Assembly (NCBI RefSeq): GCF_000010305.1
Contig: NC_012489.1
Location: forward strand, 3,851,646 to 3,915,645
Direction of reading: 5' to 3'
DNA from: Gemmatimonas aurantiaca T-27
GTDB taxonomy: Bacteria > Gemmatimonadota > Gemmatimonadetes > Gemmatimonadales > Gemmatimonadaceae
Length of the DNA: 64,000 nucleotides
The notes under the pieces are model-generated. The model did no database searches, was not told the DNA's origin, and saw only the letters and a program-made list of their open reading frames with translations. The first letter of the stretch is position 1. Each line of letters opens with the position of its first letter. Position numbers and translations under genes: made by a program. Shown here in pieces: positions 23,776-35,911 of the stretch.

Positions 23776-24198
23776 CTATGGGTCTTGTCCATCGTCTTGG
23801 CCATCGTCTGGCACAATGGCCGTGACTTCGATCTCCACTTTGGCGCGTTCCTCCATGAGCGCGACCACCTGCACGGCTGTCATCGCGATGTCGTAGTGTC
23901 CGATGACGTCGCGGAAGGCCGCACCGATGGCCGGCAGTGCCGCACGATACTCCTCGCGGCTCACCACATACCACGTCATCCGCACGATGTGTTTGGGTAA
24001 TGCGTCGGCAGCATGCAGCACTGCCGCGATGTTGGCCAGCGCCTGCCTGGCCTGCCCGGCAAAATCATCGGTGCGAAACGTCTCGGTCTCGTCCCAGCCG
24101 ATCATGCCGGCGACATGCACTTCGCGGCCGCGGGCCGACACCCCATTGGCATAACCCCGGGGACGCTTCCAACCTGCGGGCAGTACGGGCGTATTCAT
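23776..24198 (-). CDS. Rid-family (YjgF/YER057c) protein lacking the canonical Arg
   Basis: A 140-residue Rid-fold protein (GWKRPRGYANGVSARGREVHVAGMIGWD start, AAVLHAADALPKHIVRMTWYV, and the end VALMEERAKVEIEVTAIV). RidA hydrolyses enamines and imines using an Arg in a PARS-like motif; here the equivalent segment reads AMTAVQVVAL, so that Arg is replaced. In this operon an enamine hydrolase would fit the aminated cyclohexene intermediate formed by the monooxygenase/reductase, but the missing Arg means a different mechanism or another function. Its start overlaps the thioesterase stop (ATGA). Confidence 0.8.
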   Translation of the reverse strand: MNTPVLPAGWKRPRGYANGVSARGREVHVAGMIGWDETETFRTDDFAGQARQALANIAAVLHAADALPKHIVRMTWYVVSREEYRAALPAIGAAFRDVIGHYDIAMTAVQVVALMEERAKVEIEVTAIVPDDGQDDGQDP

Positions 24199-24635
24199 CG
24201 CTCACTCGTGCGAAAGGATTCAATGGCGTTGCGCAAATCTTCAGGGAACGGCATGGACTTATGCGTGTCGAGGCTGGTGCACACGATGACCTGCTTCGCG
24301 CTCACCCGTATGGACTCACCGCCCCGCACATCGATGGCCAGCACCAACGAGCTCCGGCCAAGGTGCTCAACGGCCAATCCGAGGGTGATGCTCTCTCCCA
24401 TGCTGCTCGGCGCGCGAAAGTCGGTCTCGAATCGCACCGTGGGCAGTCCCACCCGGCGTGCCCCAAGCAGGTCGGCATACGAGATGCCAAGCCGCTCGGT
24501 GACCCAGTCGTCGACGAGATTCTGGAACATGATGTAGTACTGCGCGAAGAACATGATGCCGGCCGGATCGCACACGCTGAATGGCACACGCACGATCTTC
24601 TCGAAGCGCCCGGCTGACGATGGTGATGCGGTCAC
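24195..24635 (-). CDS. Acyl-CoA thioesterase, 4-hydroxybenzoyl-CoA thioesterase type
   Basis: A 146-residue hot-dog-fold thioesterase. The motif FSVCDPAGIMFFAQYYIMFQNLVDDW matches the 4HBT pattern, with the catalytic Asp in CDPAG. It would hydrolyse a benzoyl-type CoA ester, either to release stalled 2-aminobenzoyl-CoA or to end the pathway. Start is GTG 24635, overlapping the ligase stop (GTGA); its stop overlaps the Rid gene start (ATGA). Confidence 0.88.
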   Translation of the reverse strand: MTASPSSAGRFEKIVRVPFSVCDPAGIMFFAQYYIMFQNLVDDWVTERLGISYADLLGARRVGLPTVRFETDFRAPSSMGESITLGLAVEHLGRSSLVLAIDVRGGESIRVSAKQVIVCTSLDTHKSMPFPEDLRNAIESFRTSER

Positions 24636-26257
24636 GAGGTGCTCACGTCATCGAGTTCCCTCAGCCGGAAGCGCTGCAGCTTGCCCGTGCTGGTGCGGGG
24701 CAATGCGCCCACGAACCGCACAGCGCGCGGATACTTGTAGGGCGCCACCGATTGCTTCACGTAGTCCTGCAACACCTTCACCATGGCGGCGTCTGGCTCA
24801 AACCCTGCGCGCAGCACGATGTAGGCCTTCACCAGTTGCCCACGTTCCGTGTCCGGCACGCCGGCCACACCACATTCCGCGACCGCCGGATGCTGCAACA
24901 ACACGTTCTCCACTTCGGGGCCGGCAATGTTGTACCCGGAAGAGATGATGATGTCGTCGGTACGGGCGTGATAGTGGAAGTACCCATCAGCATCCACAGC
25001 GTACGCGTCGCCGGTGTAATTCCATCCGTCCTTCACATAGCTGCGCTGCCGATTGTCACGCAGATACCGGCAGCCCGTCGGCCCTTTCACGCGCAGATTG
25101 CCCACCACACCAACCGGAACCGGCTGGCCCTGATCATCGACGACTTCGGCCCGATAGCCCGACACAGGCGTCCCTGTGGCACCGGGACGTGCACGGGCCT
25201 CGTCCGCCGAGATGAAGATGTGCAGCAGTTCGGTGGCTCCAATACCGTCGATCAGCTCGATTCCCGTGACATCACGCCACAGGGCGCGTGTGGCAGCAGG
25301 CAAGGCTTCGCCAGCAGACACACACTTGCGAAGGGTGGTGCCGGCCAGCGCCTCACGATGGGCGGCCATCGCACGGTATGACGTTGGCGCGGTGAACAAC
25401 ACCGTGGCACCGTACTCCCGAACACCTTCGAGCAGATGTGGCGGAGAAACCTTGTCGAGCAGCACCGTCGATGCGCCAATGGACATGGGGAACAACACCA
25501 GCCCCCCGAGACCGAAGGTGAACGCCAGGGGTGGACTGCCCATGAACACATCGTCTGCCGTGGCGCGCAACACGTAGGGCGGAAAGCACCGGCAGATCGC
25601 CAGCACATCCCGATGGTAGTGCATCGTGGCTTTCGGAATACCCGTTGTGCCCGATGTGAACGCCAGCAGACAGGTGTCGTCGCTCGCGGTGTCCACATTC
25701 ATGAATGGCGCATCGTGCCGTGCCATGGCCGCTTCGAGGCCATCTTGGCTGGGCTCGTGATAGCACCGCACCGTGCGCAACACGGGCGTCGTCTGCTGCG
25801 CCGCGCGCAGTTCGTCGATCAGGGCCACGTCACACAGGGCATGCGTGACCTGGCCGATCGCGATCATGGTGCTGAGCTCCTTGGCGCGCAGCATAGGCAT
25901 GGTGCCTACGGCAATCGCCCCCACCTTCATGACGGCAAACCAGCACGCCACCAGCATGGGATGATTGGCGCCCCGCAACAGGACACGATTACCGGGCACC
26001 ACACCCATGTCGTTCACCAGCACATGCGCAATACGATCGGATTGCTGTTGCAACTCACGATAGGTCCAGCGTATGCCCGGTGCGATGAGACAGGGGCGAT
26101 CGCCGTGGCCCGCTGCGATGTGGGCATCGAGCAACTCGGTGGCGCAGTTCAGTTGCTCAGGAAACTGCAGCTCCGGAAGCTCGAACAGGAATTCCGGTTG
26201 TTCGGCCAGCGGCGGCAGGTGATCGCGCGCAAAGGTATCGACGTGGGCGCTGGGCAT
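24632..26257 (-). CDS. 2-aminobenzoate (anthranilate)-CoA ligase
   Basis: A 541-residue ANL-superfamily ligase that activates an aromatic acid to its CoA ester with ATP. Motifs: FTSGTTGIPKATMH (P-loop), GATELLHIFISA (A5), GWNYTGDAY (A7), catalytic Lys in LPRTSTGKLQRF. The ligand pocket cannot be read reliably, but the operon (kynureninase upstream, 2-aminobenzoyl-CoA monooxygenase/reductase) makes anthranilate the best substrate; benzoate-CoA ligase is the nearest alternative. It begins 5 bases after the acyl-CoA dehydrogenase stop and is the first step committing anthranilate to the CoA route. Confidence 0.85.
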   Translation of the reverse strand: MPSAHVDTFARDHLPPLAEQPEFLFELPELQFPEQLNCATELLDAHIAAGHGDRPCLIAPGIRWTYRELQQQSDRIAHVLVNDMGVVPGNRVLLRGANHPMLVACWFAVMKVGAIAVGTMPMLRAKELSTMIAIGQVTHALCDVALIDELRAAQQTTPVLRTVRCYHEPSQDGLEAAMARHDAPFMNVDTASDDTCLLAFTSGTTGIPKATMHYHRDVLAICRCFPPYVLRATADDVFMGSPPLAFTFGLGGLVLFPMSIGASTVLLDKVSPPHLLEGVREYGATVLFTAPTSYRAMAAHREALAGTTLRKCVSAGEALPAATRALWRDVTGIELIDGIGATELLHIFISADEARARPGATGTPVSGYRAEVVDDQGQPVPVGVVGNLRVKGPTGCRYLRDNRQRSYVKDGWNYTGDAYAVDADGYFHYHARTDDIIISSGYNIAGPEVENVLLQHPAVAECGVAGVPDTERGQLVKAYIVLRAGFEPDAAMVKVLQDYVKQSVAPYKYPRAVRFVGALPRTSTGKLQRFRLRELDDVSTS

Positions 26258-26262
26258 CGTGC

Positions 26263-27441
26263 TCAGGGAGTCGAAGGGCGGACATCACGCAGCAGCTCAC
26301 GCGCGATGATCAATTGCTGCACTTCACTGGCGCCTTCGTAGATGCGCAGCGCGCGAATCTCACGGTACAACCGCTCGACGGGCACGTCGTGCACCACACC
26401 CATCCCACCCCAGAGTTGCAGCGCCGCATCGATGACACGTTGTGCCCCTTCGGTGGCCACATACTTCGCCATGGCCGCCTCGCGTGTCACCGGCTGCCCC
26501 TGGTCACGCTGCCAGGCCGCGCGGTACGTGAGCAACGCAGCACTGTCGATCGTGGTCGCCATCTCCGCCAGACTCGATTGGGTGAGCTGCAAGTCGGCCA
26601 GTACGCCGCCGAACATGCGACGGGTGGTGACGCGGGCCAGCGCTTCGTCGAGCGCGCGGCGCGCGAAACCGAGTGCGGCCGCAGCTACCGATGTGCGAAA
26701 CACATCGAGGGTGCGCATGGCCAGTTTGAATCCTTCGCCGGCCGCACCAATACGCTGCGAGGCTGGCACGCGACAACTCGTGAATTGCAGCCGGGCCAAC
26801 GGGTGTGGCGCGATCACGTCGATACGTTCGGCGATCTCCAGACCGGCAGTATCGGCATCCACGATGAACGCCGAAATCCCGCGTGCGCCCGGTGCTTCTC
26901 CCGTGCGGGCAAACACCACATAGAAGTCGGCGATACCCCCATTCGAAATCCAGGTCTTCTCCCCGTCGAGCACATAGTCTTCACCGTCGCGTCGCGCGGC
27001 ACATTGCAGGGCCGCAGCATCGGAGCCCGAATCCGGCTCTGACAACGCAAACGCCGCAATCGCCTCACCTCGTGCCACACGCGGCAGGTACTGCGCCTTC
27101 TGAGCATCGGTGCCGGCCAATGTGATCGCCCCCGAGCCCAATCCCTGCATCGCGAATGCAAAATCGGCCAGGCCGTCATGTCGGGCCAGCGTCTCCCGGG
27201 CCAGACAGATCGTGCGTGTATCGATCACCTCCACTGCACCGCCCCACGCCGTGCCGCCCACGGCGTGCCTGAGCCACCCGGCTTCGCCAAGCGCACGGAC
27301 CCGCCGGCGGCACGCGTCATCCACATCGTGATCGCTGGCCGTGTGCCCGAGCGATGCCGCAGCCCATTCATCGAGTGCCGCAGCGAAGGTGGCATGCCGA
27401 GGCTCGAAGAACGGCCAGGAGAGATAGTGGGTATCGGCCAT
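26263..27441 (-). CDS. Acyl-CoA dehydrogenase
   Basis: A 392-residue flavoprotein of the acyl-CoA dehydrogenase family. Blocks: [73 protein letters not shown] (FAD-binding middle domain), and the catalytic Glu in [17 protein letters not shown]. It would introduce a double bond in a CoA-bound ring or opened-ring intermediate. ATG 27441 starts MADTHYL; upstream in-frame codons overlap the enoyl-CoA hydratase and are out of register with it. Two bases separate the genes. Confidence 0.9.
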
Positions 27442-27443
27442 GG

Positions 27444-28289
27444 TCAGCGCCCCTGAAACACCGGTGTCTGACGAGCCGCAAATGCGTGATAGGCGGTCTT
27501 GAAGTCTTCGGTGAGCATGCACAGTGCCTGCGCCTGCGCCTCGGCTTCGATGGCCTGCTCGATGCCCATCGTCCACTCTTGATGCAGCATCGTCTTGGTG
27601 ATGCCATTGGCGAAGGCTGGTCCTTCAGCGAGCGATTTGGCCATGGCCTGCGCCTCGTGCAGCAGTGTCTCGCCATCGAGTAGGCGATTGAAGAAGCCCC
27701 AACGCTCGCCTTCTTCACCGCCGAGCACCCGACCAGTGTAGAGCAACTCACTCGCCCGGCCCTGACCGATGATGCGCGGCAGGATGGCGCAGGCTCCCAT
27801 GTCGCAGCCGGCCAGTCCCACCCGATTGAAGAGGAACGCCACTTTGCTACGTGTCGTGCCGTAACGCAGATCGGAGGACATGGCCAGAATCGCACCGGCG
27901 CCAGCGCACACACCGTCCACCGCGGCGATGATGGGCTGAGGACAGGCCCGCATGGCCAATACCAGATCGCCGGTCATGCGCGTGAAACGCAGCAGATCGG
28001 GCGAGGGAAGATCGACGAGCGGACCGATGATCTCGTGCACATCACCACCGGAGCAGAAATTGCCCCCGGCGCCGACGAGCACCACCGCGCGCACATCGGT
28101 CGCATAGCGCAGCGCGCGGAAGCAGTCGCGCAGCTCGGCGTAGCTCTCGAACGTCAGCGGATTCTTCCGCTCCGGTCGATTGAGCGTGATGGTGGCGACA
28201 TGGGCGTCCAGAGACCAGCCAAAATGGGTCGCCGTGAAACCGGCCATCTGGCGCGTCGTGCCGGCATCGAGTGCAGCGTGTGAGGTCAT
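27444..28289 (-). CDS. Enoyl-CoA hydratase/isomerase family protein
   Basis: A 281-residue crotonase-fold enzyme. The oxyanion-hole segments are [13 protein letters not shown] and [20 protein letters not shown], and [25 protein letters not shown] is typical. In the operon it could hydrate, or hydrolytically open, a CoA-bound alicyclic ring. The ATG overlaps the MarR stop (ATGA), which means the regulator and hydratase are cotranslated. The longer upstream frame has no support. Confidence 0.9.
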
Positions 28290-28828
28290 GCCTGACGTTC
28301 CTTGCGCGGAGTGGCAGCGGGGCGCTGGGCGGCAACGTGCACGCGCAGACGTCCGAGGAGGGCGTACAACGTGTCGCGGTGCGGCGCATCGAACCCGTCG
28401 AACAACTCGATGAGCCACTGTTCATGTTCAGCCGCCATGCGCTGGAAACGGCGACGTCCCACCTTGGTGATTCGCACGATGCTCGATCGGCCGTCGGTGG
28501 GATCGGCCAGTCGCTCGATCAATCCGTCGGCAATGAGCTGATTGGTGAGGGCGGTGACATTGCCACCGGTCACCATGAGATAGCGCGACAGGGCATTCAG
28601 CCGCAGGCCATCGGGATGACGATCGAGCTGCGCGAGATAGTCGAATCGCGGCAGCGTGGTGCCGAAGCGTTCCCGCAACTTCGCCCGAATGTCCTGCTCC
28701 ACTTGCACACTGCACGACAACAGCCGCAGCCAGAGACGCACCGCGGAATGGTCTTCAGCGCTGGCACGGGCTTCCTGTCCGATCTCGTCGTCACCGACGA
28801 CATGCACACGGGCAAATCCTCGCGACAT
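28286..28828 (-). CDS. MarR-family transcriptional regulator
   Basis: A 180-residue winged-helix regulator with an N-terminal extension. The HTH is about residues 75-125: [42 protein letters not shown], the classic MarR wing. MarR proteins of aromatic catabolism usually repress and are released by CoA esters. Being inside the operon, between the SDR and the hydratase, it would autoregulate; a palindrome upstream of the dioxygenase gene is a candidate site. ATG 28828 follows the SDR stop by two bases. Confidence 0.9.
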
Positions 28829-28830
28829 GG

Positions 28831-29589
28831 TCAGACCTCCCCACCGCTGACGGGCAGCGCCACACCAGTGATCGCGTCGGCGCCCGGCGCACAGAGCCAG
28901 GCCACCGCATTGGCCACATCACCTGGCGAGATGAACCGACCCTGAGGATTGAGCGCCGCCAAGGTCGCACGCGCGTCACTCTCGCTGCGTCCGGTGCGTG
29001 CCACGATGGTGGCCACACTCTCCTGCAGCATATCGGTATCAGTGAAGCCCGGGCACACCGCGTTCACCGTGATGCCGCGGGTTGCGACCTCCAGTGCGAG
29101 GGCGCGTGTGAGCCCCAGGGCACCATGCTTGGCCGCCACATAGGCGCTGACATAGGGATAGCCGCGTAGCGACGCGGTGCTGGCGACCGTCACGATACGT
29201 CCCCATCCGGTCTTGATCATGCCGGGCAGTACCGCGCGACTCATGTGGAATGGTCCGGTGAGATTCACCGCCAGCATGCGCGCCCACAGCTCATCGCTGG
29301 TGCGCGTGAGCGGCGCACTCTCCGCCTGTCCGGCGTTGTTGACCAACACATCCACCGGGGGAATGGCCGCAACGGCGCTCGCGACCGCGACGCTGTCCGT
29401 CACGTCGCAGATCACGATATCGCCGAGCCGATGCCCCAGCGTGAGCCCCACCGCATCGAGCGATGCACGGGAGCGACCCATCAACGTCACCCGAGCCCCG
29501 TCGGCGGCAAGCCGCTGGGCGATGGCGGCGCCGATACCACGTCCGGCACCCGTCACCAATGCATGTCGTCCTTCGAGCACTGTCATCAT
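28831..29589 (-). CDS. Short-chain dehydrogenase/reductase
   Basis: A 252-residue NAD(P)-dependent [15 protein letters not shown] is the cofactor motif, NNAG the central motif, and [20 protein letters not shown] carries Ser-Tyr-Lys. It resembles 3-hydroxyacyl-CoA dehydrogenases/3-oxoacyl reductases. In this operon it would oxidise or reduce the hydroxyl formed by the hydratase. Two ATGs are adjacent (29589 and 29586); the first overlaps the stop of the monooxygenase gene. Confidence 0.9.
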
Positions 29590-31949
29590 TTGTCCTTTTT
29601 GGCGTCAAAACCATCAATGGACGACGGCGTGACCACCGCCGCTGCCCGTGCGAACCCCGCTTCGAGCTGCGGCTTGCCACGCTCGTACGGTGGGGGCCAT
29701 GCCACGGCCGTGTACCCGATGCGGGCGGCCTCGGTGAGTGTCCAGGCGGGATTGGCGAGGTGCGGACGCGCCACAGCGCAGAGATCCGCGCGCCCCGCCG
29801 CGATGATGGAGTTCACATGGTCCGCCTCGCTGATCGCGCCCACGGCAATCGTATCGATACCCGCCTCTTGCCGGATGCGATCGGCAAATGGCGTCTGGAA
29901 CATGCGTCCATACGTGGGCCGTTCACGCTTGCTGACTTGCCCCGACGAACAGTCGATGAGATCAGCCCCCGCATCCGCAAAGGCGCGTGCAATCTCGACG
30001 GCATCGGCTGGTGTGATACCACCTTCGACCCAGTCGTGTGCGGAGATGCGCACGGACATCGGTAGGTGCTGCGGCCAGATGCTGCGCATCAGCGTGAACA
30101 CTTCCAGCGGATAGCGCAGCCGATTGGCGAGACTGCCGCCGTATTCGTCGGTACGCTGGTTGGTGAGCGGTGAGATGAAGCTCGACAAGAGGTAGCCGTG
30201 CGCGCAGTGCAGTTCGACCCAATCGAAGCCTGCCGCGATGGCCCGATGTGTGGAGGCCGCAAACTCATCCCGCACCCGTGTCATCTCGGCTCGGGTGATC
30301 TCCCGCGCCATCGCACTGACACCCGGTAGATAGGCCTGCGGCGATGCACTGACCAACGGCCAATTGGGTTCGTTTCCGCCCTCAGGCAACGGCAGATCGG
30401 TGCCATCCCAGCCGCGGCGTGTGGAGCCTTTGGCGCCACTGTGTCCGAGCTGCAACGCCATGCGTGCATCGGTGTGATCGTGCACCCAGTTCACAATGCG
30501 ACGCCAGGCCGCTTCCTGCCGGTCGTTCCACAACCCCGGACACCCCGGTGTGATACGGGCATCGGGACTGGGGCATGTCATCTCCGCCATGACCAGCGCG
30601 GCGCCGCCCAACGCCCGTGCACCGAGATGCACCAGGTGAAACTCACCGGCCACCCCATCGACCGCCGAATACTGCGCCATCGGCGACACCATCACGCGGT
30701 TCTTGAGCGTGACAGAGCGCACGGTATACGGTGTGAACATCGGCGGCGTGCGCTCGACGCTCGCGACCTGCGCACGCGCCGCAAACCAGCGTTCGTATCC
30801 CTCCAGCCATTCGCGATCTCGCACACGGAGATTCTCGTGACTGATGCGCTGACTGCGGGTGAGCAGGGAGTACATGAACTGCTCCGGCTCGAGCTGGTCG
30901 CAATAGCGCGCACCACAGACCTCGAACCACTCCATCGCGTTCCATGCGGCATTCTGGATACGCAGGGTCTCGATGCGGCGCGCTTCCTGAAATGCGGAGA
31001 GCACCTCGGGAATGTGCTGCGGCTGATCCCCAAGACGCTGAAACTGCCGCACCAGCTCCACCGCATCTTCGAGCGCGAGCTTCGTGCCAGACCCGATGGC
31101 AAAGTGCGCCGTGTGCACCGCATCGCCCAGCAGCACGACATGACTGCCGTTGGCATTGCGCAGCCACCACTGCTCGCACACGACGCGCTGGAAATTCAGC
31201 CAGGCCGAACCCCGCTGATGCCGCGCGTTGCTGAGCAGTGGAGAGCCGTTGAGCGTTTCTGAAAACAGGCGCTCACAAAATGCGACGGACTCTTCCTGAG
31301 TCGCCGTATCGAGTCCATGCGCACGCCAGACGTCCTCTGGGCACTCGACGATGCACGTGGAGGTCTGCTCGTCGAACTGATAGATGTGTGCCTGAAACCA
31401 GCCGTGCTCGGTGCGCTGAAAATCGAAGGTGAAGGCCTCGAATCGCCTGGGCGTGCCAAGCCAGATGAAACGATTCGGGCGCACCACGATATCCGGCTTG
31501 AACGTCTCGGCGTACACCGTGCGGATCTTCGAATTGATCCCGTCGGAAGCGATGATGAGATCGGCATCGGGGAACTGCAGATCGGAGTCGACCTCCTGCT
31601 CGAAACGCAACTCCACCCCCAGCGCTTCACATCGCGCCTGAAGGATGTTCAGCAGGCGCTTGCGCCCAATGCCGACAAACCCGTGACCACCCGAACGAAT
31701 GTTTCGCCCCTTGAAACGGAGCTCGATGTCGTCCCAGTGACTAAAGGACTGCTCGATGGCATCAGCGGTGTCGGCATCCCATCGCCGCATCGTATCCATG
31801 GTGGCATCCGAGAACACCACGCCCCACCCGAATGTGTCGTACGGACGATTCCGCTCGACCACCGTGATATGGTGCCGTGGGTCGAGGCGCTTCATCAAGA
31901 GGGCGAAGTACAGCCCGGCCGGACCACCACCAATGCATACGATTCTCAT
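29586..31949 (-). CDS. Bifunctional 2-aminobenzoyl-CoA monooxygenase/reductase
   Basis: A 787-residue fusion. The N-terminal half (1-400) is an aromatic FAD monooxygenase: [38 protein letters not shown], and [25 protein letters not shown]. The C-terminal half (about 405-770) is an Old-Yellow-Enzyme-type FMN reductase: [62 protein letters not shown]. This architecture is that of the enzyme which hydroxylates and then reduces 2-aminobenzoyl-CoA, breaking aromaticity. A salicylyl-CoA hydroxylase label applies only to the N-terminal half. The kynureninase upstream makes anthraniloyl-CoA the probable substrate. ATG 31949 follows kynU by 59 bases. Confidence 0.9.
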
Positions 31950-32008
31950 GCCGCATACAGTACGACCCGTTACTTCAAACCTCAAGTAACGGGTGTGAGC
32001 CAGTCCAG

Positions 32009-33250
32009 TCAGGTCACAGCCTGCCGAGTGCGGTACTCCGGAGCCTGCCACGCACGCGTGCGCAGTACGTCTTCCAGGACATCGACCGCGTGCACGATGT
32101 CGGCATAGCGCAGATACAGAGGCGTCAGACCGAAGCGCATGATATCGGGTGCTCGGAAGTCCCCGATGACACCACGGGCAATCAATGCCTGCATGATCGC
32201 ATAGCCCTCGGGATGGCGGAACGACACGTGACTGCCACGAGGCGCGCCCGGGGGCGGACCAACGAGTGTTACATCGTGTTCAGCACAGCGCATGTGCACG
32301 AGGCCCATGAACAACTCGGCCAGCGCACGGGACTTGCGTGCTATCTCCTGCATGTCGGCTTCGAGGTGCAGATCGACTCCACACTCGAGGGCCGCCATCC
32401 CGACGACCGATGGCGTGCCACAGAGGAACCGCGAGATGCCGGAGGCGGGTTCGTAGTGATCCGTGAAGGCAAACGGCTGCGCATGCCCCATCCATCCGCC
32501 CAGTGGCGACACCAGCGAGGCGTGATGCCGCTCCGCCACAAAGAGGAAGGCCGGTGCGCCCGGACCGCCATTCAGGAACTTGTACCCACAGCCCACCGCG
32601 AGGTCGGCATTGCAGGCATTCAGGGCCAACGGCAGGGCCCCCACCGAATGACTGAGATCCCACAGCACCATGGCACCCTTCGCCTGTGCGGCAGCGGTGA
32701 TCGCGGCCATGTCATGCACATCAGCGGTCTTGTAGTGCACATGCGTGAGCAGCACGAGCGCGGTCTCTTCGGTGATGTGCGACACAATCTCGTCACGCGG
32801 CGTCAGTGTCAGCGCATGCGCTCCACCGAGCGTGGCAATCGCCGTCTCCAGCATGTAGAGATCGGTCGGGAAGTTGCCAGGCTCGGAGAGCACGGCATGA
32901 CGACCAGGGCGCGCACGCAGCGCGGCGATGATCAGCTTGTGCAGGTTCACCGACGTGGAATCAGCCACGATCACTTCGTGGGGATTGGCGCCAACCAGTC
33001 GCGCAATCTTGGCCCCAACCCGTCTCGGAGCATTGATCCAATCCGCACTGTTCCAACTGCGGATCAGCCCTTCCCCCCATTCCCCCTCGATGACGTCACG
33101 CACGCGATCGGCAGTGGCACGCGGCAGGGCCCCCAGCGAATTCCCATCGAGATAGGTCACCCCCTCCGGCAGCGAAAATCGGGCGCGGAAGGCGGCCAGC
33201 GGATCAGCGGCATCGAGGGCAGCGATCTGCGCGGAAGAAATGGCGTCCAT
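32009..33250 (-). CDS. kynU: Kynureninase
   Basis: A 413-residue PLP enzyme that cleaves L-kynurenine to anthranilate and alanine. Family blocks: [70 protein letters not shown], the PLP Lys in [20 protein letters not shown], and [18 protein letters not shown]. It stands 18 bases after the dioxygenase gene and feeds the anthranilate-CoA ligase lower in the operon. The start ATG 33250 gives MDAISSAQI. Confidence 0.95.
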
Positions 33251-33268
33251 GATGTCGTGTGGTGGCCG

Positions 33269-34381
33269 TCAGGCGCGTGCAGCGCGGGTGGCTTGATGGG
33301 CCGCGCCGAGGAAAGTGTCGAGTGAGGTGCCACCGGTGCCGGTGAGGTCGCGTGCGGGTCCGGACGGGATCACGATGTAGTCGTGCGCCAGTTTCATGTG
33401 CGCCTGGCGAAAGGCCGCGATCTGTGCCACGACGTCGTTGAAGGCGTCACGCAACGCGGCAGAGCCAGACAGGGCGCGTTCGCGCACACGACTGTCACGT
33501 TCCACCAACTCCACCAGCGCACGATGCGGCTTGGGCATGTAACCACGCACGCTGCGCAGATACGCGCCGGCGGGATGATCGGCATGATGCACACCGAGCA
33601 TGGCATCGAAGAGCTGCAGCAGAGCGCTCTGCCCTGCACTGCCGCCGAGGTAACGACGCGGTTCATCCGATACCCCTTCGTACACGATGCCGGGCGCCGG
33701 CCAGCCGGTCACGAAGGGACGTACTCGCAGATAGTACGTCGACGGGTCGCACCAGGTCCGCACGTGCTCCATGGCCGCATGCACCTGGGGCATGAGATCG
33801 CCAAACGTGATGAGTGCGTCACGAAGGCCCCCATCATCGTCGGCCCGAGCACAGTCCACGGCTCGCATGGCAATGGGAATCAGCGGCGCTCCCGCCAACT
33901 CCACGCCCATCGAGGCCACAAAGAACCAATCTTCGTCGACCCCGCCGAGGAATTGGATCTGCGTCCGTGCATTATCCACCGACACGGGCTGCGTCTCGTC
34001 GACGAGGCGCCAATTGGTCAACGTGGTGGTCGCATAGTGTGCGATGGGCGGCCGCTCCATTTCCGCGGCCAGTGCGCAGAGCGGCACCGCGATGCTGCGA
34101 GGAAGACGGGTCGCCGCCTGCTCGTCACCCCAAACGTACGCATTGGCGAAGTGCGTGAGCAGCAGGAGCGCCCGCTCACGATCACCGTCGGTGGTGAGCA
34201 CCAGCGGGTCGAGCAGCGGCAGCGTCTCCATCAAGGCACGCACACGGCGCGCCCTGATGAGAGCACTGAGTTCCGGAACAACCTGGTCCCACACCGCGAA
34301 CGCAGGCGGCAAGGCATTGGGCAGCGGTACGGGAGACACAAAGCCCGTACGCGGATTCACCTGATAGTCGGAGAGCGCCAT
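33269..34381 (-). CDS. Indoleamine 2,3-dioxygenase (IDO-type tryptophan dioxygenase)
   Basis: A 370-residue haem dioxygenase that opens the tryptophan indole to N-formylkynurenine. It is of the IDO family, not the smaller TDO/KynA family: FLGGVDEDWFFVASMGVELAGAPLI, YLGGSAGQSALLQLFDAMLGV, YMPKPHRALVELVE, proximal haem His in FRQAHMKLAHDYIVIPSG (residue 328) and the C-terminal GTGGTSLDTFL, all aligning with vertebrate IDO by eye. Start ATG 34381 has no Shine-Dalgarno but a good promoter immediately upstream, suggesting a leaderless start; a TTG seven codons upstream is the alternative. It heads the eleven-gene operon. Confidence 0.93.
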   Translation of the reverse strand: MALSDYQVNPRTGFVSPVPLPNALPPAFAVWDQVVPELSALIRARRVRALMETLPLLDPLVLTTDGDRERALLLLTHFANAYVWGDEQAATRLPRSIAVPLCALAAEMERPPIAHYATTTLTNWRLVDETQPVSVDNARTQIQFLGGVDEDWFFVASMGVELAGAPLIPIAMRAVDCARADDDGGLRDALITFGDLMPQVHAAMEHVRTWCDPSTYYLRVRPFVTGWPAPGIVYEGVSDEPRRYLGGSAGQSALLQLFDAMLGVHHADHPAGAYLRSVRGYMPKPHRALVELVERDSRVRERALSGSAALRDAFNDVVAQIAAFRQAHMKLAHDYIVIPSGPARDLTGTGGTSLDTFLGAAHQATRAARA

Positions 34382-34388
34382 CCGAATG

Positions 34389-34418
34389 ATTGTAGGCCGC
34401 AAAGATCGCCGATGTCAT
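34389..34418 (-). promoter_or_regulatory. Promoter of the tryptophan/anthranilate operon
   Basis: On the minus strand, ATGACA (-35, 5 of 6 to consensus) and TACAAT (-10, 5 of 6) are 18 bases apart. Seven bases separate TACAAT from the dioxygenase ATG, so initiation would fall at or next to the start codon, giving a leaderless mRNA. This agrees with the absent Shine-Dalgarno. Confidence 0.6.
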
Positions 34419-34432
34419 TCGGGGTTTGTTCG

Positions 34433-34449
34433 CAATTCGACCCAAATTG
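34433..34449. promoter_or_regulatory. Dyad upstream of the operon promoter
   Basis: CAATT-7 bases-AATTG is a perfect inverted repeat next to the stop of the convergent-side membrane protein gene and about 60 bases upstream of the predicted start of transcription. Position and TTG/CAA content would suit a MarR-family box, but short arms make chance possible. Confidence 0.3.
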
Positions 34450-35169
34450 TCATCTCCGCCAGAGTCTCCACGCGAGCAATCCTTGCCACAGCGCCTGGGC
34501 GGCCACGATCAGCCCGAAGATCCGAACATCGAGATGTCCGACAAACCCAAGACGGGCGACGACCAGGCCGCCGCCGGTGACCACACCAAGCACGGCAATG
34601 GACCGCAGCAGGCCGTCCGACGCGGCCCCCGCTGAGTGGCGCACTGCTGAGTGGCGCACTGCTGAGTGGCGCACTGCTGCACGCCACAACACGACCGACC
34701 AGCCAATCATGGCGGCTCCGGAACCGACGACATAGATGGCCGCGAAGGCCTGGTTGAGCAGCGCGGTGTACCAGAGCAGTGGCTGCAAGACTCCCGTCGA
34801 GTTGGCATCGACACCGGCGCTGGCCATGCGCTCGACGACGGCCGTGGCCACCAGTCCGCTCATCGCTCCCGCAAACAGTACCGCCACCAACGCCGTGAGC
34901 TGCGCAGCCAGTGCGAGCCCGGAAAGCGCCCCGGAGCCCCTCAGCCGGACACCGAGGCGTGCAAAGCCGAACGCCAGGACCGGCACGGCGGCCATGGCCA
35001 GCGCGTGGACTCCGCGGGCCAACGCAACGCCCCGTCCATGCGATGCATGGGCCAACGTCTCGGGTCCCGATGGGTGCATGCTCATCGTGATGACCATGGC
35101 TGCGCTGCCTATGCCGAGGGCCAGTGCTGCGGAACGATCTGCGGGAACGCCTTCGTTCACTGTGTCCAT
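34450..35169 (-). CDS. Unknown multi-pass membrane protein
   Basis: A 239-residue protein with about six hydrophobic segments (for example GIGSAAMVITMSMHPSG, ALSGLALAAQLTALVAVLFAGAMSG, GGGLVVARLGFVG). No family recognised. A three-fold AVRHS repeat sits in the loop near residue 185, caused by a 15-base tandem repeat in the gene. AGGAG lies seven bases upstream of ATG 35169. It is divergent from the TetR gene at 35258 with an 88-base spacer, so it may be its target; it is upstream of, but separated from, the tryptophan operon on the same strand. Confidence 0.7.
   Translation of the reverse strand: MDTVNEGVPADRSAALALGIGSAAMVITMSMHPSGPETLAHASHGRGVALARGVHALAMAAVPVLAFGFARLGVRLRGSGALSGLALAAQLTALVAVLFAGAMSGLVATAVVERMASAGVDANSTGVLQPLLWYTALLNQAFAAIYVVGSGAAMIGWSVVLWRAAVRHSAVRHSAVRHSAGAASDGLLRSIAVLGVVTGGGLVVARLGFVGHLDVRIFGLIVAAQALWQGLLAWRLWRR
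34631..34675. repeat. Three 15-base direct repeats
   Basis: Unit GCTGAGTGGCGCACT occurs three times back to back without a mismatch, followed by GCT. It lies in frame inside the membrane-protein gene and encodes AVRHS three times, so copy-number change would alter the protein by five residues without a frameshift. Confidence 0.95.
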
Positions 35170-35191
35170 TGGGAGACTCCTGCGAGGGCGG

Positions 35192-35214
35192 TGACGTGCC
35201 GTTGCGTCAGGCAC
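35192..35214. promoter_or_regulatory. Overlapping dyads between membrane protein and TetR genes
   Basis: TGACG-8 bases-CGTCA (35192-35209) overlaps GTGCC-9 bases-GGCAC (35196-35214), both perfect. They fall in the 88-base divergent spacer next to a TetR-family gene, a usual operator position. Arms of five bases are weak evidence. Confidence 0.3.
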
Positions 35215-35257
35215 ATGGACCGCCAAGGTTAGGGGCTCACCTTCTCCCGGAACGACG

Positions 35258-35911
35258 ATGTCGGACAAAACCCGCCCCGGTGTTCAGCAGACATCGTCCG
35301 ACGACCGGCACGCCGACGACGATCCCCGCGTGCAGCAGTCGATGCGTGCCATGCGCGAGGCGCTGAACACACTGCTCGGCGAGCGGGCGTTCAACGACAT
35401 CACCGTGCAGCAGATTCTCGATCGAGCCGGCGTTTCGCGCGCCACGTTCTATGCGCACTTTCGCAACAAGGACGATGTGCTGTTTGCCAGCTTCGAGCGC
35501 ATGGTGCACGGGTTGGCGCGAACGTTGAATACTCCGCACGAACGCCAACGACCGCGGCTCGTCCCGATGCGGGAACTGATCGAGCATTTTGCGAGCGCCG
35601 GCGATGTGTTCCACTCGCTCGAATCCTCGGGACGTATGGAAGCCCTGTGGGACTTTGGCACGGACGTGCTGGCCGGCCTCATCGAAGACCGGCTACCCAC
35701 ATTCCGCGCAGTTTTTGCTCGGCGGCGTGCCCCGACCCCTCTCGATGATGGCATGGATGACCGGCTGACGGCCCGCATGCTCGCCGGAGCCTGTCTCGAG
35801 CTGGTGAAATGGTCGCGCGCCTTTCCCGATCGACTCACTCCGGCGGAACTCGATGCCCGGTTCCACGTGATGGCCCAGCGCGCGGTGGCTCCTGCTATTT
35901 TTCAGGCATGA
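35258..35911 (+). CDS. TetR-family transcriptional regulator
   Basis: A 217-residue regulator with an unstructured 28-residue N-terminal tail (TSSDDRHADDD). The HTH is about 38-85: ALNTLLGERAFNDITVQQILDRAGVSRATFYAHFRNKDDVL. The C-terminal domain is generic (TetR_C_33-like, contains LAGACLELVKWSRAF). Its stop codon overlaps the fumarase start (ATGA), an unusual coupling of a repressor with a citric-acid-cycle enzyme. Likely targets are the divergent membrane protein and itself. Confidence 0.88.
   Translation: MSDKTRPGVQQTSSDDRHADDDPRVQQSMRAMREALNTLLGERAFNDITVQQILDRAGVSRATFYAHFRNKDDVLFASFERMVHGLARTLNTPHERQRPRLVPMRELIEHFASAGDVFHSLESSGRMEALWDFGTDVLAGLIEDRLPTFRAVFARRRAPTPLDDGMDDRLTARMLAGACLELVKWSRAFPDRLTPAELDARFHVMAQRAVAPAIFQA

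Follow-up and report, generated by a model that had tools for sequence, protein, structure and literature searches.

The locus examined here raises the question of where the message of an indoleamine 2,3-dioxygenase (IDO) family gene begins, and whether the MarR-family regulator encoded in the same gene cluster acts at that point. The earlier note had proposed that this message starts at or beside the IDO ATG, and that a CAATT/AATTG dyad just upstream could be the MarR site. We addressed both proposals in the window, that is the whole stretch of 64,000 nucleotides of Gemmatimonas aurantiaca T-27 that was analysed, and in related genomes. Coordinates are those of the window, and all genes of the cluster are on the minus strand.

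The IDO gene (33269-34381; PF01231, E 8.5e-91) is followed by genes for a kynureninase (KynU, 32009-33250; TIGR01814, 311.2 bits, cutoff 246.4) and for a fusion of an FAD monooxygenase with a flavin oxidoreductase (29586-31949; PF01494 and PF00724; PRK08255 equivalog, 1351.8 bits, cutoff 1078), the start of which was shifted from that of the longest frame (32051) to 31949 according to the conserved start in orthologs. The NCBIfam name for the fusion protein is salicylyl-CoA 5-hydroxylase/oxidoreductase; we infer a protein of either this type or the 2-aminobenzoyl-CoA monooxygenase/reductase type, the latter from the neighbouring genes. Further along are a short-chain dehydrogenase (28831-29589), the MarR-family regulator (28286-28828; PF12802, E 1.3e-12), an enoyl-CoA hydratase family protein (27444-28292), an acyl-CoA dehydrogenase (26263-27447), an AMP-forming CoA ligase resembling benzoate-CoA ligase (24632-26257; TIGR02262, 356.7 bits, below the cutoff of 375.25), and a thioesterase-like (24195-24635) and a Rid-family-like protein (23776-24198), both with matches below cutoffs. 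This predicted gene content fits a route from tryptophan to anthranilate and then through CoA-thioesters. The name 'tryptophan operon' used in the earlier note therefore holds for tryptophan catabolism (IDO, KynU) and not for tryptophan biosynthesis, and a single operon is doubtful given a second conserved promoter between KynU and the monooxygenase.

Gene order around this core varies. In one relative (L057) an arginase-family gene (PF00491; 12517-13317, minus strand) lies between KynU and the monooxygenase; a similar-looking stretch of 942 bases occupies this position in L059, and by eye only a short remnant is found in L067. The window has no room for such a gene there, and its best homolog, 38% identical, is elsewhere in the genome. 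Because IDO makes N-formylkynurenine, one might speculate that the L057 gene encodes a non-classical kynurenine formamidase. On the other side of IDO, two genes (34450-35911) separate it from a fumarase gene in the window, one of membrane type that has no Pfam match and the other a divergent TetR gene; homologs of the two (37% and 51% identity) are found past the other end of the cluster in L058.

Upstream of the IDO ATG (34381-34379), the -10 hexamer TACAAT (34389-34394, minus strand) is separated from the start codon by the seven bases CATTCGG (34388-34382) and from the -35 hexamer ATGACA (34413-34418, minus strand; WTGWCN in relatives) by an 18-base spacer, confirming every element of the promoter as originally described. 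The pair is the sole promoter-like match in 33500-35500, which, with a mean of 0.4 (sd 0.7) in shuffled sequence, is near chance for a single sequence; its significance comes from the orthologs. The reported lack of a Shine-Dalgarno sequence is likewise borne out: none was detected by anti-SD pairing over the last 20 bases, for which the energy with an anti-SD 10-mer is -1.7 kcal/mol, whereas control stretches pair more strongly on average (-3.65 kcal/mol). The ATG at 34381, which orthologs back, is likely the true start since two relatives (L007 and L008) have an in-frame stop ending 9 bases upstream of it. An alternative TTG start at 34402 was rejected, as nine other sequences have no start codon there. 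We also rejected an inverted repeat, CCGAATGA...TCATTCGG, flanking the promoter, which is perfect in the window and L003 only.

IDO is present in 13 of 179 genomes of the family and in one genome of another family among 298 genomes of the phylum. The upstream DNA of all 14 genes was compared, genome G355 being represented by record L120, taken as the same locus, and a distant IDO relative (L121, 31% identity) being left out. In 12 of the 14 orthologs, a CCGWATGWC block, a spacer of 18 or 19 bases and a TANNNT precede the ATG, and the gap from the -10 to the ATG is 7 bases in nine of these and 6 in three. The L120 and L008 upstreams are identical over 150 bases, leaving 11 distinct sequences among the 12. 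The two genomes concerned (G355 and G290) are placed in different genera despite this identity, possibly through an error in MAG binning.

Across the 11 sequences, with L007 (spacer 19, gap 6) displaced by a single base around the -35, pairwise identity is 0.79 in the -10 and 0.68 in the -35. It is 0.54 between the -10 and the ATG, 0.38 in the part of the spacer nearer the -35, and 0.32 far upstream. The last five spacer bases beside the -10 are also conserved (0.69), which the hexamers alone do not explain, and identity is 0.70 in the stretch from -50 to -38 above the -35. The latter belongs to a conserved block, CGAAC-N6-CGAATG (34413-34432, minus strand), that overlaps the -35 and extends just above it, and in 8 of the 11 sequences the second CGAA is preceded by another one at a distance of 11 bp (the first copy of L009, cut by the edge of its stretch, was ignored). 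The block is a candidate site for a regulator other than MarR. Searched without mismatch in 30 genomes of the genus, the pattern CMCCGWATGWC-N19-TANNAT has a single match, at IDO, in every one of the 9 genomes with the gene and none in the 21 without it; the pattern was written from these 9 genomes and their matches are thus partly circular. Allowing one mismatch adds 8 further places across these 30 genomes, where the reversed control gives 4.

These comparisons bear on the main alternative, namely that the IDO message is longer and leadered, starting at a promoter further up or reading through from the gene that ends at 34450, and that the hexamers are incidental. In the window a same-strand gene does end 68 bases above IDO, so readthrough transcripts are possible, and the promoter scan of the window sequence alone is, as noted, near chance. 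In the loci of 7 relatives, however, the gene directly upstream is not this one but the fumarase gene, divergent from IDO at about 80-120 bp, so that the ido promoter should lie within this short gap. Furthermore, it is mainly the hexamers and the adjoining block that are conserved, at a fixed distance from the ATG, and the Shine-Dalgarno sequence expected of a leadered message is missing. One exception speaks for the alternative: ortholog L009 has a similar block, but its ATG is 53 bases past the -10 and its Shine-Dalgarno pairing is not clear (-3.2 kcal/mol). If its promoter is the same, this ortholog is leadered, and on this reading leaderlessness is not universal among IDO orthologs. The other exception, L010, which belongs to a different family within the order, has no such block. 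In L007 and L008, the -10 itself reads TAGGAT and contains AGGA, with pairing at -4.0 and -4.4 kcal/mol, and may double as a weak Shine-Dalgarno sequence. On balance we consider a longer transcript unlikely.

To place IDO within its genome, we used a sample of 40 stretches plus the window (864 kb), in which a simple gene finder based on codon usage predicted 660 genes. Starts were picked blind to the upstream sequence; 460 of the genes begin with ATG, 459 of them with enough upstream sequence. A TANNNT starting at -14 to -11 precedes 41 of these 459 starts, 25 of them at -12, while the background of 1.8 per offset predicts about 7. The decoy TNNNAT is found at the same offsets before 24 of the 459 starts, raised broadly and without a sharp peak, and AT-rich -10 boxes can satisfy both patterns. 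Almost no TANNNT peak is seen at GTG and TTG starts (2 of 200 at -12). Shine-Dalgarno four-mers precede 116 of the 459 ATG starts compared to 29 at a control position. Admitting near-equal starts gives TANNNT counts of 59/544, 66/585 and 69/612, with controls of 7 to 22. Taken as a rough fraction, the starts being predicted, about a tenth of the genes look leaderless, IDO among them with a TANNNT that begins at -13, one base from the peak. Leaderless genes thus seem common in this bacterium, and a leaderless IDO would be ordinary for the organism. The divergent fumarase gene also looks leaderless: at 35896-35910, a TATTTT starts 12 bases before its ATG.

The conserved spacing in orthologs, the peak of TANNNT among the sampled genes and the missing Shine-Dalgarno sequence together support the leaderless start put forward in the earlier note, to which we assign a probability of roughly 85%. 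In the mechanism that we propose, 34382-34418 would serve as a sigma-70-type promoter of ido-kynU, transcription would begin either with the A of the IDO start codon or with the G immediately before it, and translation of the message would start at its 5'-terminal AUG and involve no Shine-Dalgarno pairing.

The regulatory part of the original proposal fared differently. The CAATT-N7-AATTG dyad (34433-34449) is found a short way upstream of the -35, in a cluster that does contain a MarR gene, and both facts would suit an operator for the whole cluster. Yet such a dyad is what chance provides: 44% of 68-bp stretches of the window contain a dyad with 5-bp arms and a loop of 3-10 bases, and CAATT-N7-AATTG with at most one mismatch has 1 match in the window where 0.49 are expected, 36 of 100 shuffles holding one. 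It is missing from the relatives' upstream sequences, including the aligned upstreams of the six that have a close MarR ortholog. Scored with a matrix of the likely MarR operator described below, the region upstream of IDO reaches -8.5 at best, compared to 35 to 40 for the operator sites and to -6.7 for the 95th percentile of 150-bp window stretches. In addition, no MarR or monooxygenase gene is found in the stretch covered around ido-kynU in five genomes (L062-L066, of which L065 is cut by the contig end just after kynU); four of them (upstreams L004, L005, L007 and L008) keep the IDO promoter and its spacing, and the fifth (L009) keeps the block only. Since the promoter is kept where no MarR cluster was seen beside ido-kynU, MarR is unlikely to regulate it. 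Given also that a far stronger, MarR-associated dyad exists elsewhere in the cluster, we judge the CAATT dyad a chance occurrence and its role as operator very improbable; the MarR of the cluster most likely does not act at the IDO promoter.

This stronger dyad, ACCCGTTACTT-GAGGTTTG-AAGTAACGGGT (31965-31994), is perfect, with 11-bp arms and an 8-base loop, and is located between KynU and the monooxygenase. No match with up to three mismatches was found in any of 100 shuffles. Close MarR orthologs (66-77% identity) are present in 6 of the 12 other genomes searched; with the window's own, the dyad core occurs once per genome in 7 of 7 genomes with such a MarR and in 0 of the 6 genomes without it, and reversed-pattern controls gave none. 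The pattern was derived from five sites plus the window, making their own matches partly circular, which does not apply to the match in G328 or to the single occurrence per genome. In all 7 orthologous loci the dyad spans a TTGARG that is followed by 17 bases, a TANNNT and, 5-7 bases on, the monooxygenase ATG. In the window these elements are the -35 TTGAGG (31980-31985, minus strand), within the dyad, and the -10 TACTGT (31957-31962, minus strand), with a 17-base spacer and 7 bases before the ATG at 31949. Two of the 6 other genomes (G268 and G296) carry the monooxygenase cluster on a different contig from ido-kynU, together with a MarR of 43% identity and a half-degenerate site, CTTGATATTTGAAGTAA, which the dyad pattern does not match and which stands before a leadered-looking GTG start.

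The same inverted repeat could instead form an RNA hairpin, acting as attenuator or terminator. Its perfect arms and 8-base loop would allow this, and the folding energy of the 76-base segment is -24.2 kcal/mol (z -1.77), a value matched by 10 of 200 shuffles. Several relatives have nevertheless lost the outer arms and retain the core TTRCTTGARGTTTSAAGTA, the dyad spans a conserved -35, and there is no terminator-like match in 31700-33400, nor one between the unit of the IDO promoter and the second unit. We regard a hairpin as improbable; the dyad is likely a MarR operator, predicted to lie within a second leaderless-type promoter ahead of the CoA-thioester half of the cluster. The cluster as a whole probably has two promoters. 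MarR would most likely repress this second promoter (31957-31985) through the dyad, and would, by analogy, probably be released by an aromatic CoA-thioester or anthranilate.

We tentatively propose, at somewhat less than even odds, that the cluster is a head-to-tail junction of two regulons, ido-kynU and the CoA-thioester module, and that each of them has a leaderless promoter of its own. MarR would repress one via TTACTTGAGGTTTSAAGTAA, and the other would be controlled via CGAAC-N6-CGAATGWC by a MarR-independent regulator that predates the joining.

None of these results amounts to a new kind of system. They provide evidence from sequence comparison that a bacterium of a little-studied phylum commonly has leaderless genes, and IDO serves as an example, backed by its orthologs, of a catabolic gene with a leaderless promoter; they offer a better place than the CAATT dyad to seek the MarR operator, and they correct the likely start of the monooxygenase gene. 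In proteobacteria, kynurenine genes are controlled by KynR, a regulator of the Lrp/AsnC family. The present locus resembles that system in the control of genes leading from tryptophan to anthranilate and differs from it in the genes that neighbour ido in the window, namely the membrane-type gene, TetR and fumarase.

A MarR gene inside a catabolic cluster is also a feature of IacR and IadR, described as MarR-family repressors of aromatic catabolism that act on auxin catabolism (PMC9613470). Our cluster, in which the dyad overlaps the promoter of the enzyme genes, differs in pathway and is likened to theirs by gene context. The closest parallel for the IDO start itself is the class of TA-led, that is leaderless, bacterial genes (Zheng et al., 2011; PMC3160421). 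A literature search combining leaderless genes with Gemmatimonas found no paper, and Gemmatimonadetes is not among the groups with leaderless genes named in the main text of that paper, where 'Other Bacteria', given as 8 of 20 genomes, are not itemised. The features shared with the TA-led genes described there are a TANNNT about 12 bp before the start (at -13 in IDO, within the range of roughly 10-13 bp that marks the class) with weak middle positions, a missing Shine-Dalgarno sequence and a high-GC genome; in IDO the position of the TANNNT is also kept in orthologs. Unlike that work, as presented in its main text, the present analysis traces the promoter of one gene through its orthologs.
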